Below, one piece after another: positions 10,435 through 25,220 of a stretch of 64,000 nt of DNA (positions are counted from its first letter, which is position 1; each line of letters begins with the position of its first letter). Source of the DNA: Aurantimonas aggregata (GTDB taxonomy: Bacteria; Pseudomonadota; Alphaproteobacteria; Rhizobiales; Rhizobiaceae); NCBI RefSeq assembly GCF_010500835.1, contig NZ_JAAAMJ010000006.1, forward strand, positions 62,001 through 126,000. The letters run 5' to 3'. The notes below the pieces were generated by a model. The model saw only the letters and a program-made list of their open reading frames with translations, made no database searches and was not told the origin of the DNA. Made by a program: the position numbers and the translations under genes.

Positions 10435-10800
10435 TCAGGCAGCGTCGGCCAGCATCTTCGCCACTTCGTCCACCAGTTCGCGCAAGTGGAACGGCTTCGA
10501 CAGGATCTTGGCGTCCTTGGGAGCCTTCGAATCGGGGTGCAGTGCGACGGCGGCGAAGCCGGTGATGAACATGACCTTCAAATCGGGATCGAGTTCGGTG
10601 GCGCGACGCGCCAACTCGATCCCGTCCATCTCCGGCATGACGATGTCGGTCAGGAGCAGCGAGAACGGCTCCTCGCGCAAGCGCTCGTAGGCGCTGCCGC
10701 CATTGTCGTAGGTGACCACCTCGTAGCCGGCGCGTTCCAGCGCCTTGGCGAGGAAGCGGCGCATGTCGTTGTCATCTTCGGCAAGTAGGATCTTTGACAT
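10435..10800 (-). CDS. cpdR: response regulator CpdR
   Basis: 121-aa stand-alone receiver domain. In Caulobacter and Sinorhizobium, unphosphorylated CpdR recruits the ClpXP protease to the pole and primes degradation of cell-cycle proteins, with CckA-ChpT as the phosphate source. Key residues are present: acidic pocket D9/D10, phospho-acceptor D52 (LLLTDIVMPEMDG), T80 and K102 (SKPFH). There is no output domain. The N-terminus MSKILLAEDDNDMRRFLAKA is typical of CpdR. It is divergent from the N-formylglutamate amidohydrolase gene. Confidence 0.92.
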   Translation of the reverse strand: MSKILLAEDDNDMRRFLAKALERAGYEVVTYDNGGSAYERLREEPFSLLLTDIVMPEMDGIELARRATELDPDLKVMFITGFAAVALHPDSKAPKDAKILSKPFHLRELVDEVAKMLADAA

Positions 10801-10954: not shown

Positions 10955-11860
10955 TTGGGGAACGTGCCAACAGTCAGGACCGCCAGCGGCGACGTCCCGG
11001 CCTATGAACTCATCGAGCCCGCCGAAGCACGCATTCCCTTCGTCTTCTGCTCCCCCCATTCCGGCAGCGATTATCCGCTGGAGCTGATCGCCGCCACGCG
11101 ACTCACCGACCAGACCGTCCGCCGCTCGGAGGACCTCTTCGTCGACCGCCTGTTCGACTTCGTGCCGGGCATGGGCGCGCCGCTGCTCGCCGCCCGCTTT
11201 CCGCGCGCCTATCTCGACGTCAACCGCGAGCCCTACGAGCTCGATCCGGGGATGTTCTCCGAGGAGCTGCCCGATTACGCCAATGTCGCTTCGGTCCGGG
11301 TCGCGGGGGGGTTGGGTACGATCCCGCGGATCGTCGCCGAAAACGAGGAAATCTACCGGACGGCCTTGCCGCTGTCCGAGGGGCTGCAGCGGATCGAGAC
11401 CGTCTACAAGCCGTTTCACCGCACGCTGGAGGAAGCCCTCGGCCGGGTGCGGGACCGCTTCGGCATCGCGGTCCTCGTCGACTGCCATTCGATGCCGTCC
11501 AGCGTTCGGGCGCTGCCGGGCGGCAGGCGTCCGGACATGGTGATCGGCGACCGATTCGGCACCAGTGCGGCGGGGCGCCTGGTGACCATCGCGACGTCAC
11601 GGCTCGCGGCCCAGGGCTACGACGTCGCCCGCAATAAGCCCTATGCCGGCGGCTTCATCACCGAACGCTACGGGCGCCCGCCGGTGGGGTTTCATGCCAT
11701 CCAGATCGAGATCAACCGCGCGCTCTACGCCGACGAGCGGACCTATCTGCCGCATGAGGGATTCGCCGTCCTGCGGGACCGGCTGGCAGCCTTCGTGGCG
11801 GGCTTTGCCGCGGACGTCGATGCCGAATACCTGCAACCTTCCGCCGCCGCGGCCGAGTAG
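10955..11860 (+). CDS. N-formylglutamate amidohydrolase family protein
   Basis: 301 aa. Family members are zinc-type amidases hydrolysing N-formyl-L-glutamate (HutG route of histidine breakdown) or similar N-formyl or N-acyl amino acids. The signature region is VFCSPHSGSDYP near the N-terminus, followed by the conserved tyrosine/arginine block FPRAYLDVNREPYELD, VLVDCHSMPS (about 178-187) and IQIEINRALY. The start is TTG 10955, with AAAGGGG 5 bp before it; a GTG at 10964 is an alternative. No hut genes are adjacent, so the exact substrate is open. Confidence 0.88.
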   Translation: MGNVPTVRTASGDVPAYELIEPAEARIPFVFCSPHSGSDYPLELIAATRLTDQTVRRSEDLFVDRLFDFVPGMGAPLLAARFPRAYLDVNREPYELDPGMFSEELPDYANVASVRVAGGLGTIPRIVAENEEIYRTALPLSEGLQRIETVYKPFHRTLEEALGRVRDRFGIAVLVDCHSMPSSVRALPGGRRPDMVIGDRFGTSAAGRLVTIATSRLAAQGYDVARNKPYAGGFITERYGRPPVGFHAIQIEINRALYADERTYLPHEGFAVLRDRLAAFVAGFAADVDAEYLQPSAAAAE

Positions 11861-11885
11861 AATCGGACCTGGGGAGCCCAAGGCC

Positions 11886-11967
11886 AAAAAGAACCGCACT
11901 GCGGTGAGACAGTGCGGTCTAGTCTAGGGAGGAAACGCCCGTAAGGGCAACGGCACGCCAATGCCGC
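11886..11967 (-). ncRNA. mmgR: MmgR/suhB-family (alpha-r8) small RNA
   Basis: Trans-acting sRNA candidate of about 82 nt, read from the minus strand. Two 5' hairpins (CGGCA/TGCCG with loop TTGGCG; GCCC/GGGC with loop TTAC) are followed by a single-stranded stretch TTTCCTCCCTAGACTAG containing an anti-Shine-Dalgarno CCTCCC, then an intrinsic terminator (ACCGCACTG ... CAGTGCGGT + TCTTTTT). Its position, upstream of and divergent to an inositol monophosphatase family gene, is that of the suhB/MmgR RNAs of Hyphomicrobiales. In S. meliloti, MmgR limits polyhydroxybutyrate granules and responds to nitrogen supply. Assignment rests on structure, the CCTCCC motif and context, not on a search. Confidence 0.8.
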
Positions 11968-11973
11968 ACTGCA

Positions 11974-12002
11974 AAACTACGACTCCCGCCAGAGGGTGTC
12001 AA
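11974..12002 (-). promoter_or_regulatory. promoter of the MmgR-like sRNA
   Basis: On the minus strand a perfect -35 TTGACA (11997-12002) is separated by exactly 17 bp from a -10-like TAGTTT (11974-11979). The predicted start is near 11967, which is just where the first stem of the sRNA begins. Confidence 0.7.
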
Positions 12003-12010
12003 GATGATTC

Positions 12011-12027
12011 TGCACCATATCCGTGCA
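12011..12027. promoter_or_regulatory. NtrC-like inverted repeat
   Basis: TGCACCATATCCGTGCA is a 17-bp dyad that differs at one position from the NtrC consensus TGCACC-N5-GGTGCA. Its centre is about 52 bp upstream of the predicted sRNA start. A second, weaker 17-bp dyad (TTGC ... GCAA) lies at 12050-12066, 39 bp further. Binding by NtrC is an inference. Confidence 0.5.
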
Positions 12028-12065
12028 GATTCGAAACCGCCGTTTCTTTTTGCACATGCTGCGCA

Positions 12066-12863
12066 ATGACTGAGCCCGATCGGATTCCCATGCCCTCTCC
12101 GGATATCGACTTCCTGCTGGCGCTCGCCGACGTCGCCGACGCCGAGACGCTGCCGCGCTTCCGGAATGGTGCTGGCGTCGACAACAAGCTGGTCGCGGCC
12201 TTCGATCCGGTCACGGAAGCGGACCGCGCGGCCGAACTTGCGATCGTGTCTGCCATAAGGGGCCGGTACCCGGAGCACGCCGTCCTCGGCGAGGAATATG
12301 GCCTCACCGGCGAGGGCGACCGGCTCTGGGTGATCGATCCGATCGACGGGACGCGTGCCTTCATCGCAGGCGTACCGGTCTGGGGCACGCTGGTCGGGTA
12401 TTGCGAGGCGGGCATCGCCCGTCTCGGCCTGATGTCGCAACCCTTCACCGGCGAACGCTTCATCGCCGACACCGATGCCGCCTGGCTCGAGCATGGCGGC
12501 CGGCGACAGCGCCTCGCCGTGCGCCGGACGGAGGAACTCGCGGCAGCGACGCTCTTCACCACCACGCCGCGGCTGTTCACGGGCGAGGCGCTGCGTCGCT
12601 TCGAGGCGCTGGAGAGCCAGGCACGCCTGACGCGCTTCGGCGTCGACTGCTACGCCTTCTGCATGCTCGCCGCGGGCCATGCCGACCTGGTCGTGGAAAC
12701 GGGCCTTAAGCCCTACGACATCGTCGCGCTGGTGCCGATCATCGAGCGGGCCGGCGGGGTGATCACCAATTTCGCCGGTGATCGGCCGGAGGCCGGCGGC
12801 GACATCGTCGCCTCAGCCACGCCCGTCCTGCACCGCCAGGCCCTCGATATCCTGAACGGCTGA
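12066..12863 (+). CDS. hisN: histidinol-phosphatase, inositol monophosphatase family
   Basis: 265 aa. In Hyphomicrobiales this IMPase-type protein is usually the histidinol-phosphatase of histidine biosynthesis; activity on inositol phosphate or other sugar phosphates is the alternative. The metal-binding residues are all visible: E76/E77 (GEEYG), D91, D94 (WVIDPIDGTRAF) and the C-terminal metal aspartate in YDIVALVPIIERAGG. ATG 12066 is the first start that leads straight into the fold; ATG 12090 is also possible, and neither has a strong ribosome site. The last 51 bp overlap, tail to tail, the 3' end of the alpha/beta hydrolase gene. Confidence 0.85.
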   Translation: MTEPDRIPMPSPDIDFLLALADVADAETLPRFRNGAGVDNKLVAAFDPVTEADRAAELAIVSAIRGRYPEHAVLGEEYGLTGEGDRLWVIDPIDGTRAFIAGVPVWGTLVGYCEAGIARLGLMSQPFTGERFIADTDAAWLEHGGRRQRLAVRRTEELAAATLFTTTPRLFTGEALRRFEALESQARLTRFGVDCYAFCMLAAGHADLVVETGLKPYDIVALVPIIERAGGVITNFAGDRPEAGGDIVASATPVLHRQALDILNG

Positions 12864-18259: not shown

Positions 18260-22984
<4,725 letters not shown>

Positions 22985-23344: not shown

Positions 23345-23742
23345 CGCGGTTCCTGCTGGATACGAACATCATCTCCGATGTCTTCCGCAACCCAGGAGGC
23401 CGGGTTGATAATGCGCTGCGGGAACGTCAGAACGCGGGGATAGGGACCAGCCTGATCGTGGTGGGAGAAATTCTGTACGGGCTGAAGAAGAACCAGAACA
23501 TGCGTGGCCTGCAGCGGTTCGAAGTGTTCATGCGGTCCATTTCGGTATGGGCGCTGGAGCCGCCGGTCGCGACGATCTACGGGGAAGTCAGGAATGCCTG
23601 CGAACGTATGGGCAAGAGCGTGGGGCCAAACGATCTGTGGATCGCCGCGCACGCTGTCGCCCTCGACGCGACCCTGGTCACCGACGACAGAGCCTTCGAG
23701 CACATCTCGGCTCTGACTGTTGAAAATTGGTTGCGCGCCTAG
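23341..23742 (+). CDS. vapC: VapC-type PIN-domain toxin
   Basis: 133-aa Mg2+-dependent endoribonuclease of the PIN family. All four conserved acidic residues are present: D7 (LLDTNIISD), E43 (VVGEILYGL), D98 (NDLWIAA) and D116 (VTDDRAF), so it should be active. VapC toxins usually cut tRNA or rRNA. The start is TTG 23341, inside the antitoxin stop. The pair lies between gltB and gltD in the same direction. Confidence 0.9.
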   Translation: MTRFLLDTNIISDVFRNPGGRVDNALRERQNAGIGTSLIVVGEILYGLKKNQNMRGLQRFEVFMRSISVWALEPPVATIYGEVRNACERMGKSVGPNDLWIAAHAVALDATLVTDDRAFEHISALTVENWLRA

Positions 23743-23765
23743 GCGCCCGAAAAATTGAGAAGAAT

Positions 23766-25220
23766 ATGGGTAAGGTAACCGGATTTCTCGAGATCGACCG
23801 GCAGACGCACAAGTACCAGCCGGCGTCCGACCGCATCCGGCATTTTCGCGAGTTCACGCTGCCGATGTCCGACGAGGAAGTCGGCAAGCAGTCGGCGCGG
23901 TGCATGGATTGCGGCATTCCCTATTGTCATGGGCCGACCGGCTGTCCGGTCCACAACCAGATCCCGGACTGGAACGATCTCGTCTATTCCGGCGACTGGG
24001 AGGGCGCGGCACGCAACCTGCACTCGACCAACAACTTCCCCGAATTCACCGGCCGCATCTGCCCGGCGCCGTGCGAGGAAGCCTGCACGCTGAATCTCGA
24101 GGACGCGCCGGTGGCGATCAAGACGATCGAGCAGGCGATTGCCGACAAGGCCTACCAGCTCGGCCTGATCAAGCCGCAGCCGCCGAAGCAGAAGACCGGC
24201 AAGCGCGTCGCCGTCATCGGCTCGGGTCCCGCCGGCATGGCGGCGGCCCAGCAGCTCGGCCGCGCCGGCCACGACGTCCATCTGTTCGAGCGGGAGTCGC
24301 GCCCGGGCGGCCTGATGCGCTACGGCATTCCCGACTTCAAGATGGAGAAGCACTGGATCGACAAGCGCGTCGAGCAGATGCAGGGCGAGGGCGTGACGTT
24401 CTTCTGCGGCGTCAATGTCGGCGTCGACCGCAAGCTCACCGACATCGCGGCCGAATACGACGCCGTGCTCTATTGCGGCGGCTCCGAGCAGCCGCGCGAG
24501 GCGGGTATCCCGCGCAACGGCCTCGGCGGCATCTACGACGCCATGCCCTATCTCGTGCAGCAGAACCGCCGGGTCGGCCGCGAGCCGATCGGCAGCGTCG
24601 GCTGGCCGTCTGAGGAGATATGGGCCGGCGGCAAGCATGTCGTGGTCGTGGGCGGCGGCGACACCGCTTCGGACTGCGTCGGCACCGCCTTCCGGCAGGG
24701 CGCCGTCAAGGTCACCCAGCTCGACATCCGGCCGCAGCCGCCGAAGACCGAGAACAAGCTGGAAGTCTGGCCCTACTGGGCGACCAAGATGCGAACGTCG
24801 TCGAGCCAGGCCGAAGGCGCCATCCGGGAATTCCAGATCGCCACGCTGGAGTTCGTCGGTGAAGACGGGGTGCTGACCGGCGTTCGCTGCGCCGAGGTCG
24901 ACGAGGCCCGCAAGCCGATCCCGGGCACGGACTTCATCATCAAGGCCGATCTCGCCTTCATCGCCATCGGCTTTGCCGGGCCGATCGCCGACGGTTTCCT
25001 CAAGGATGCCGGCGAAGCGCTCGCGACGAAGACCGATCGGCGCGGCAATGTCTCGATTGCCGCCGACGACCAGACCTATCTCACCTCGGTCGAGAAGCTC
25101 TACACGGCAGGCGACGTCCGCCGCGGCCAGTCGCTGGTGGTCTGGGCGATCCGCGAAGGGCGCCAGGCGGCGCGGGCGATCGATCTCGACCTGATGGGCA
25201 CCACGACACTGCCGCGCTGA
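23766..25220 (+). CDS. gltD: glutamate synthase small subunit
   Basis: 484-aa beta subunit of NADPH-GOGAT; it passes electrons from NADPH to GltB. The N-terminal 4Fe-4S cysteines are C46, C49, C54 and C60 ([15 protein letters not shown]), followed by [12 protein letters not shown]. The FAD-binding [13 protein letters not shown] (about 158) and the NADPH-binding GGGDTASDC motif complete the fold. ATG 23766 is chosen for the conserved [13 protein letters not shown]. It starts 23 bp after the VapC stop, so translation may depend on read-through from the TA pair. Confidence 0.97.

Follow-up and report, generated by a model that had tools for sequence, protein, structure and literature searches.

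The window (the whole stretch of 64,000 nucleotides analysed here) carries the single MmgR (αr8) gene of an Aurantimonas-type bacterium; the small RNA (sRNA) is of a known type and its operator is relocated. As judged by comparison, the best-supported control element of this gene is a predicted PhaR (AniA) operator over the start site, which the earlier note on this DNA had overlooked and which points first to the status of the carbon store (PHB). We consider it probable that this single αr8 gene is transcribed by sigma-70 polymerase and repressed by PhaR through this operator, that PHB releases mmgR together with the phasin genes, that MmgR restrains its targets, and that an inverted repeat upstream of the -35 box (dyad 1) serves as a second input. 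What we computed, as set out below, is membership of the family, the fold, the match to the operator, its conservation and co-occurrence with PhaR across the class, and the sites on the phasin genes.

The MmgR gene, its promoter and its neighbours

The features of the locus are listed by position in the window.

10955-11860, plus strand: N-formylglutamate amidohydrolase (FGase) gene (PF05013, 251.8 bits)
11879-11967, minus strand: MmgR/suhB/αr8 sRNA gene (RF00519 match at 11955-11879; promoter-based predicted start near 11967)
11892-11919, minus strand: intrinsic terminator stem-loop with CTTTTT tail (terminator scan)
11926-11935, minus strand: conserved anti-Shine-Dalgarno 10-mer UUUCCUCCCU (eight of ten bases unpaired in the best fold)
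11965-11973, minus strand: TGCAGTGCG, core of a predicted PhaR (AniA) operator that overlies the start site (position O2; the extended site spans 21 bp, 11959-11979)
11974-11979, minus strand: -10 box TAGTTT (by sequence; identical in congeners L018 and L024)
11997-12002, minus strand: -35 box TTGACA (by sequence; identical in congeners L018 and L024)
12009-12029, no strand: dyad 1, TGCACCATATCCGTGCA (12011-12027) within TCTGCAC-N7-GTGCAGA; possible weak NtrC site
12050-12066, no strand: dyad 2, TTGCACATGCTGCGCAA, TTGC...GCAA; touches the first possible HisN start codon
12066-12863, plus strand: hisN-type histidinol-phosphatase gene (start at 12066 or 12090; TIGR02067 over its cut-off; PF00459)

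The earlier note had proposed a minus-strand sRNA of the MmgR/suhB type and suggested a covariance-model search as a check. This search with RF00519 (suhB/mmgR, αr8) confirmed the assignment: the match at 11955-11879 (minus strand) scored 61.0 bits against a curated gathering score of 41 (E = 4.2e-10), spanned the whole model (1-77), and was the single match in the 4.86-Mb genome at an E threshold of 0.001. RF00519, which Rfam names 'Makes More Granules Regulator' (mmgR), is presented in PMC1273637 as a probable non-coding RNA encoded on the other strand from suhB.

Folding of the RNA (11967-11882, minus strand) yielded -37.1 kcal/mol (z = -3.65), an energy equalled by none of 200 shuffles, with two 5' hairpins followed by the unpaired GUUUCCUCC and the terminator stem. 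The two hairpins and the intrinsic terminator (stem 11919-11892 with its CTTTTT tail) had thus been correctly recognised before. The CCTCCC that had been described as a single-stranded anti-Shine-Dalgarno stretch is indeed mostly unpaired, but in the best fold the last C of CCUCCC and the next U join the U-tail to form part of a weak outer helix. UUUCCUCCCU, with eight of ten bases unpaired, comes after a short 5' helix and is followed by the intrinsic terminator, as in the RF00519-type layout.

The promoter reads TTGACA-N17-TAGTTT (12002-11997 and 11979-11974), as had been noted, and the predicted start near 11967 was placed from these boxes. A generic consensus promoter scan over 11840-12120 listed no promoter because the -10 box TAGTTT is a poor match. 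The sRNA gene is flanked by the FGase gene and by the divergent HisN gene; the latter (PF00459 and TIGR02067) is the inositol-phosphatase (IMPase) family gene to which the earlier reading had placed the sRNA divergently. FGase linkage, reported as the rule for the αr8 family (PMC12559287), is found in the window as well; by tblastn, FGase matches occurred in 144 of 190 sRNA loci, making it the usual neighbour, and HisN matches in 86 of 190. A gene for a cpdR-type cell-cycle response regulator (10435-10800, minus strand; NF046022 over its cut-off) lies beyond the FGase gene as seen from the sRNA.

A predicted PhaR operator over the start site

TGCAGTGCG, which has the YGCRNYGCR core, stands directly after the -10 box, between it and the inferred start. 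We scored the window with a matrix of ten S. meliloti PhaR sites, the mmgR site omitted, which were picked by us from part of the published table, the EMSA result being seen for not all ten. The mmgR site TAGTTTTGCAGTGCGGCATTG ranked first among 63,980 window positions with a score of 12.9 (next, 11.5). The S. meliloti mmgR site itself scores 16.8 with this matrix, and the PhaR-type sites of the phasin genes in this genome score 23.5 and 21.2, as against 12.9 for O2 at mmgR.

The genome encodes PhaR (PF07879, 104.1 bits, cut-off 25), and both phasin-family genes found in it carry a PhaR-type site (ATATTGTGCAGCGCAATATAT and TTATGTTGCAGTGCACAATGG). Among 15 phasin-family loci of the genus, an A/T-flanked core lies upstream in 12 and only GC-rich matches were seen in three (L147, L148 and L150), the site scan having covered 22 of 23 phasin loci. 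At mmgR, O2 is the only site in the window, L018 and L024; L030, L031 and L033 have a site in the -35/-10 spacer; L032 and L034 combine a spacer site with a second site one base off the core.

We also considered pairing of phasin leaders with the CCUCCC seed. The two leaders of this genome gave -16.7 and -15.4 kcal/mol, and a set of 12 leaders ranged from -8.0 to -16.9 kcal/mol. These energies lack a gene-wide control and the start codons were guessed differently among orthologues, and the pairing was given zero weight as support.

The operator across the class

We collected 205 sRNA loci at the levels of genus, family, order and class, mostly best-scoring ones at one or a few per genus and not a random draw, of which 190 yielded 213 promoters. 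The other 15 yielded none, either with the core not within two mismatches or with the contig end too near; the operator was seen in two of them (L016 and L099), a core-like stretch without operator in six (L037, L041, L049, L286, L290 and L291), and seven gave nothing. YGCRNYGCR was present in 154 of the first 197 αr8 promoters against 19.6 in shuffled sequences, with 7, 28, 9 and 18 for the gap controls N0, N2, N3 and N4. The untranscribed part alone contained it in 105 of 213 promoters (11.7 shuffled), and here the controls N0, N2, N3, N4 and N5 gave 6, 24, 8, 6 and 26 against about 10-12 expected for each, N2 and N5 being raised too, far less than the true core.

Two positions were preferred, counted from the first -10 base: O1, in the spacer, with 69 sites centred at -9/-8, and O2, over the start, with 78 sites centred at +10 to +12. 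They lie about 20 bp from each other and flank the -10 box. By class, 53 of the 213 promoters have a site at the -10/start only, 38 in the spacer only and 49 in both; 44 have no site, and 15 showed no recognisable promoter; a site upstream of -35 was seen in 14, nine of which have a spacer site too. The operator accompanies 127 of 160 FGase-linked and 37 of 53 other sRNA copies, a difference that is not significant.

Presence of the operator followed presence of the PhaR gene. Among the sampled genomes it was found in 148 of 176 with PhaR and in 2 of 11 without (p = 8e-6, such p-values being optimistic because the genomes are related); an earlier, narrower interval, widened after it missed near-start sites (L027), had given 146 of 176 and 2 of 11. 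Counted by promoter, the core was absent from 40 of 200 in PhaR-bearing genomes and present in 4 of 13 in genomes lacking PhaR, and both of the operator-bearing genomes without PhaR are less complete assemblies (82% and 91%). Contrasts within families between members with and without PhaR agreed in three (f1, f16 and f34, the operator being missing from some PhaR-bearing members of f1), showed the operator in neither kind of member in four (f23, f164, f171 and f81) and in both in two (f30 and f146); for the PhaR-lacking genomes of f77 and f175 the sample included no PhaR-bearing partner. In a set of 289 genomes from the class, 137 had both the sRNA and PhaR, 22 the sRNA alone, 31 PhaR alone, and 99 neither.

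These counts bear on whether the YGCRNYGCR at the start site might be a mere feature of the RNA rather than an operator. Its right half is transcribed and paired in the fold, within the 5' hairpin GCGGCAU...GUGCCGU, so that some of the conservation of O2 may be RNA structure. Its left half (TGCA) is untranscribed, however, an equal element stands in the -35/-10 spacer of relatives, congeners L030-L034 included but not L024, at the frequency given above for the untranscribed part, and the element tracks the PhaR gene. O1 is free of the RNA-structure problem, but the window has no O1 core. We regard a purely RNA role as very improbable.

The open-licence papers that we consulted do not describe an operator with two positions throughout the class, nor that it goes together with PhaR; prior notice of the conservation is likely. 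We tentatively suggest, at slightly less than an even chance, that across most PhaR-bearing Alphaproteobacteria the αr8 sRNA is an arm of a PHB-sensing PhaR circuit, with two interchangeable operators that flank the -10 box, roughly one double turn of DNA from each other, and of which lineages keep either or both, and with NtrC-type boxes repeatedly added at plain sigma-70 promoters.

Apart from these promoters, six loci of the window's family (L037, L040, L041, L045, L046 and L049) have a best RF00519 score over the cut-off and no GTTTCCTCCCTA core within two mismatches; in L037, L041 and L049, variants of CCUCCC stand in other contexts and the PhaR operator is absent. These six may be a diverged paralogue group.

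The upstream dyads and NtrC

Nitrogen control had been the centre of the earlier reading, which placed two NtrC-like dyads, 39 bp apart, upstream of the -35 box. Both inverted repeats are present, with starts 39 bp apart, and they fared differently. Dyad 1 has the NtrC geometry: it differs from TGCACC-N5-GGTGCA at one of 12 bases and is the sole window position with one mismatch or fewer, although its score is borderline. Dyad 2 was rejected as an NtrC site; its geometry is wrong, its best consensus match leaves 5 mismatches of 12, and L018 has an altered left arm.

Dyad 1 is a perfect 7-bp repeat that ends about 7 bp upstream of the -35 box (centre about -52). The exact form TGCAC-N7-GTGCA is found at only four places in the genome, making dyad 1 unlikely by chance here. 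The other three places (L059, L060 and L062) and the one-mismatch place L070 are next to no canonical nitrogen gene, as judged by eye. L070 (G000:C1:426425) has TGCACAAATTATGCGCA between divergent genes, one of them IclR-type regulator-like by eye, and this repeat is possibly the operator of that IclR-type regulator rather than an NtrC site. In the genus, dyad 1 occurs in five of eight members (window included), about 7 bp from the -35 box, and is absent from L030, L031 and L033. Its gap is 6 bp in L018 and L024 and 7 bp, the NtrC gap, in the remaining three bearers; one arm base is changed in L032 and L034.

The genome contains NtrC, which keeps the GAFTGA loop, and two P-II genes. The genus's two P-II genes, which from their first residues we take to be glnB and glnK, carry boxes of which TGCCTAAGTATTAGGCA is an example. 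Scanning located a sigma-54 promoter in each of the six glnB loci, and the TGGCACG...TTGA/TTGT form was recognised by eye in the six glnK loci. The genus has 12 P-II loci, and we built NtrC matrices from the boxes of 7; the remaining loci had no clear TGC-N11-GCA box or only one of another kind. With the seven-box matrix, dyad 1 scored 7.6 (second best in the window) against 15.9-23.6 for the seven P-II boxes when each was left out in turn; the same matrix gave 10.0 for L032, 11.6 for L034 and values below zero for L018 and L024.

Family-wide, we counted TGC-N11-GCA upstream of -35 in 201 of the 213 promoters, close copies removed and PhaR sites masked, and found it in 35 against 9.2 in shuffled sequences. 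Control spacings N8-N10 and N12-N16 gave 9-16 of 201, near background, and N6 (27) and N7 (26) were raised, meaning that not all upstream repeats are NtrC-like. A first count over the whole promoter (46 of 197; controls N9 41 and N12 38) was muddied by PhaR sites and was therefore replaced by this one. The ten-box Aurantimonas P-II matrix reached at least 10 in 25 of 201 promoters (mean 1.5, maximum 13, over 60 column-permuted matrices) and at least 8 in 33 of 201 (4.1, maximum 24); the window reaches 8.4. The enriched boxes support the NtrC idea for the family, and the score of 8.4 leaves the window dyad borderline. In L006, L091, L096 and L182, all of one family, the -35 box of αr8 copies is directly bordered upstream by a short repeat, for example CTGCATTAAATGCAG. 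Another regulator may act upstream of these copies, the N6 and N7 spacings being raised family-wide.

The scan detected no sigma-54 promoter in the sRNA promoter of the window, and only 2 of 213 promoters family-wide, below the gap controls (4-11). NtrC, should it act at this locus, would be working on a sigma-70 promoter despite its GAFTGA loop, as at S. meliloti NfeR1. The glutamate synthase genes gltB (18260-22984, plus strand; large subunit) and gltD (23727-25220, plus strand; small subunit) also lie in the window, where the lineage NtrC consensus TGCMTAANNNTTAKGCA has no match with three or fewer mismatches, and hence none at gltBD.

Taken as the main regulator, NtrC would switch MmgR on under nitrogen limitation through dyad 1 (and dyad 2). 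The near-consensus match of dyad 1, the enrichment of TGC-N11-GCA and of P-II matrix hits family-wide, the presence of NtrC and two P-II genes, and the reported NtrC activation of S. meliloti mmgR (PMC7143759, PMC8401924) all favour such a role. Several findings given above argue against it: only three of the five genus members with the dyad have the NtrC gap, L018 and L024 being one base shorter; the window score is far under those of the genus's own P-II boxes; the N6 and N7 spacings are enriched too; sigma-54 promoters are missing or rare; and dyad 2 fails. Moreover, the dyad-1 form of the congeners, TGCACGAT-N4/5-TGCAG, occurs in the eight genus genomes at mmgR (four places) and at two other places, neither of which is beside a nitrogen gene by eye. 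On balance we find it unlikely that NtrC is the main regulator. The same pattern, held by mmgR in four genus members and by so few other places, is what an Aurantimonas-specific factor contacting polymerase just upstream of -35 might leave, and so are the perfect 7-bp arms in the window and the near-constant distance of about 7 bp from -35 in all five bearers, with a gap of 6 or 7. The window's own variant falls outside that pattern, however, the factor comes without a candidate protein, and the arms fit NtrC half-sites as well. We consider dyad 1 as the operator of such a factor a possibility, somewhat ahead of NtrC as main regulator and still doubtful.

A proposed PHB-responsive circuit

In the explanation that we prefer, sigma-70 polymerase would transcribe mmgR from TTGACA-N17-TAGTTT, beginning at the predicted start, and PhaR would bind O2 between the -10 box and the start site and thereby repress the gene. 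When PHB granules form, PhaR would be drawn away, and the phasin genes (same operator) and mmgR would be released together. MmgR would then pair UUUCCUCCCU with ribosome-binding sites and restrain its predicted mRNA targets, phasins probably among them, and PhaR, phasins and MmgR would form an incoherent feed-forward loop. A second, genus-limited input, possibly weak NtrC binding, would come from dyad 1, which immediately precedes the -35 box.

The focus thereby moves from nitrogen alone to PhaR, the regulator tied to the carbon store. If the class-wide proposal is true, one sRNA would weigh stored carbon against nitrogen supply, with NtrC acting outside its sigma-54 role.

Comparison with known systems

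The UUUCCUCCCU 10-mer is the pairing site used by SisA in Caulobacter (PMC12559287). SisA-D (αR8) of Caulobacter crescentus belong to the same family and share the 10-mer core, and it is this core that, with Hfq, base-pairs with the CrfA sponge; they are reported as four copies with unrelated promoters and no common upstream motif (PMC12559287), whereas the genome studied here has one match. S. meliloti NfeR1 (αr14), of another sRNA family, is described with a TGC-N11-GCA NtrC box and without a sigma-54 signature in its promoter; NtrC represses it and LsrB activates it (PMC10746234).

The closest counterpart is S. meliloti MmgR (αr8, RF00519), which is of the same RNA family and has, as in the window, a PhaR operator in the core promoter. 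PhaR (AniA) of S. meliloti shifts the mmgR promoter in EMSA, with the motif core YGCRNYGCR; PhaR acts as a repressor of phasin genes, and PHB granules titrate it away (PMC12542648); and MmgR lowers phasin protein, directly or indirectly (PMC8401924). The statement in the earlier note that S. meliloti MmgR is nitrogen-responsive holds in the literature, with NtrC reported as its activator (PMC7143759, PMC8401924) and nitrogen control published by Ceizel Borella 2018, as cited in PMC7143759, PMC8401924 and PMC10746234. A table lists this sRNA with both RpoD and RpoN (PMC7143759), the latter speaking for a sigma-54 link there. Both the PhaR and the NtrC inputs to mmgR are therefore already published for S. 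meliloti (PMC7143759, PMC8401924, PMC12542648). The two systems differ in that the S. meliloti PhaR site ends 13 bp before the start, approximately at the O1 position (PMC12542648), whereas the window has O2 only and no O1 core, and in that dyad 1 is found only in the window's genus. Our comparison suggests that the S. meliloti case may be an instance of a class-wide rule with two operator positions, of relevance to many PHB-making bacteria.
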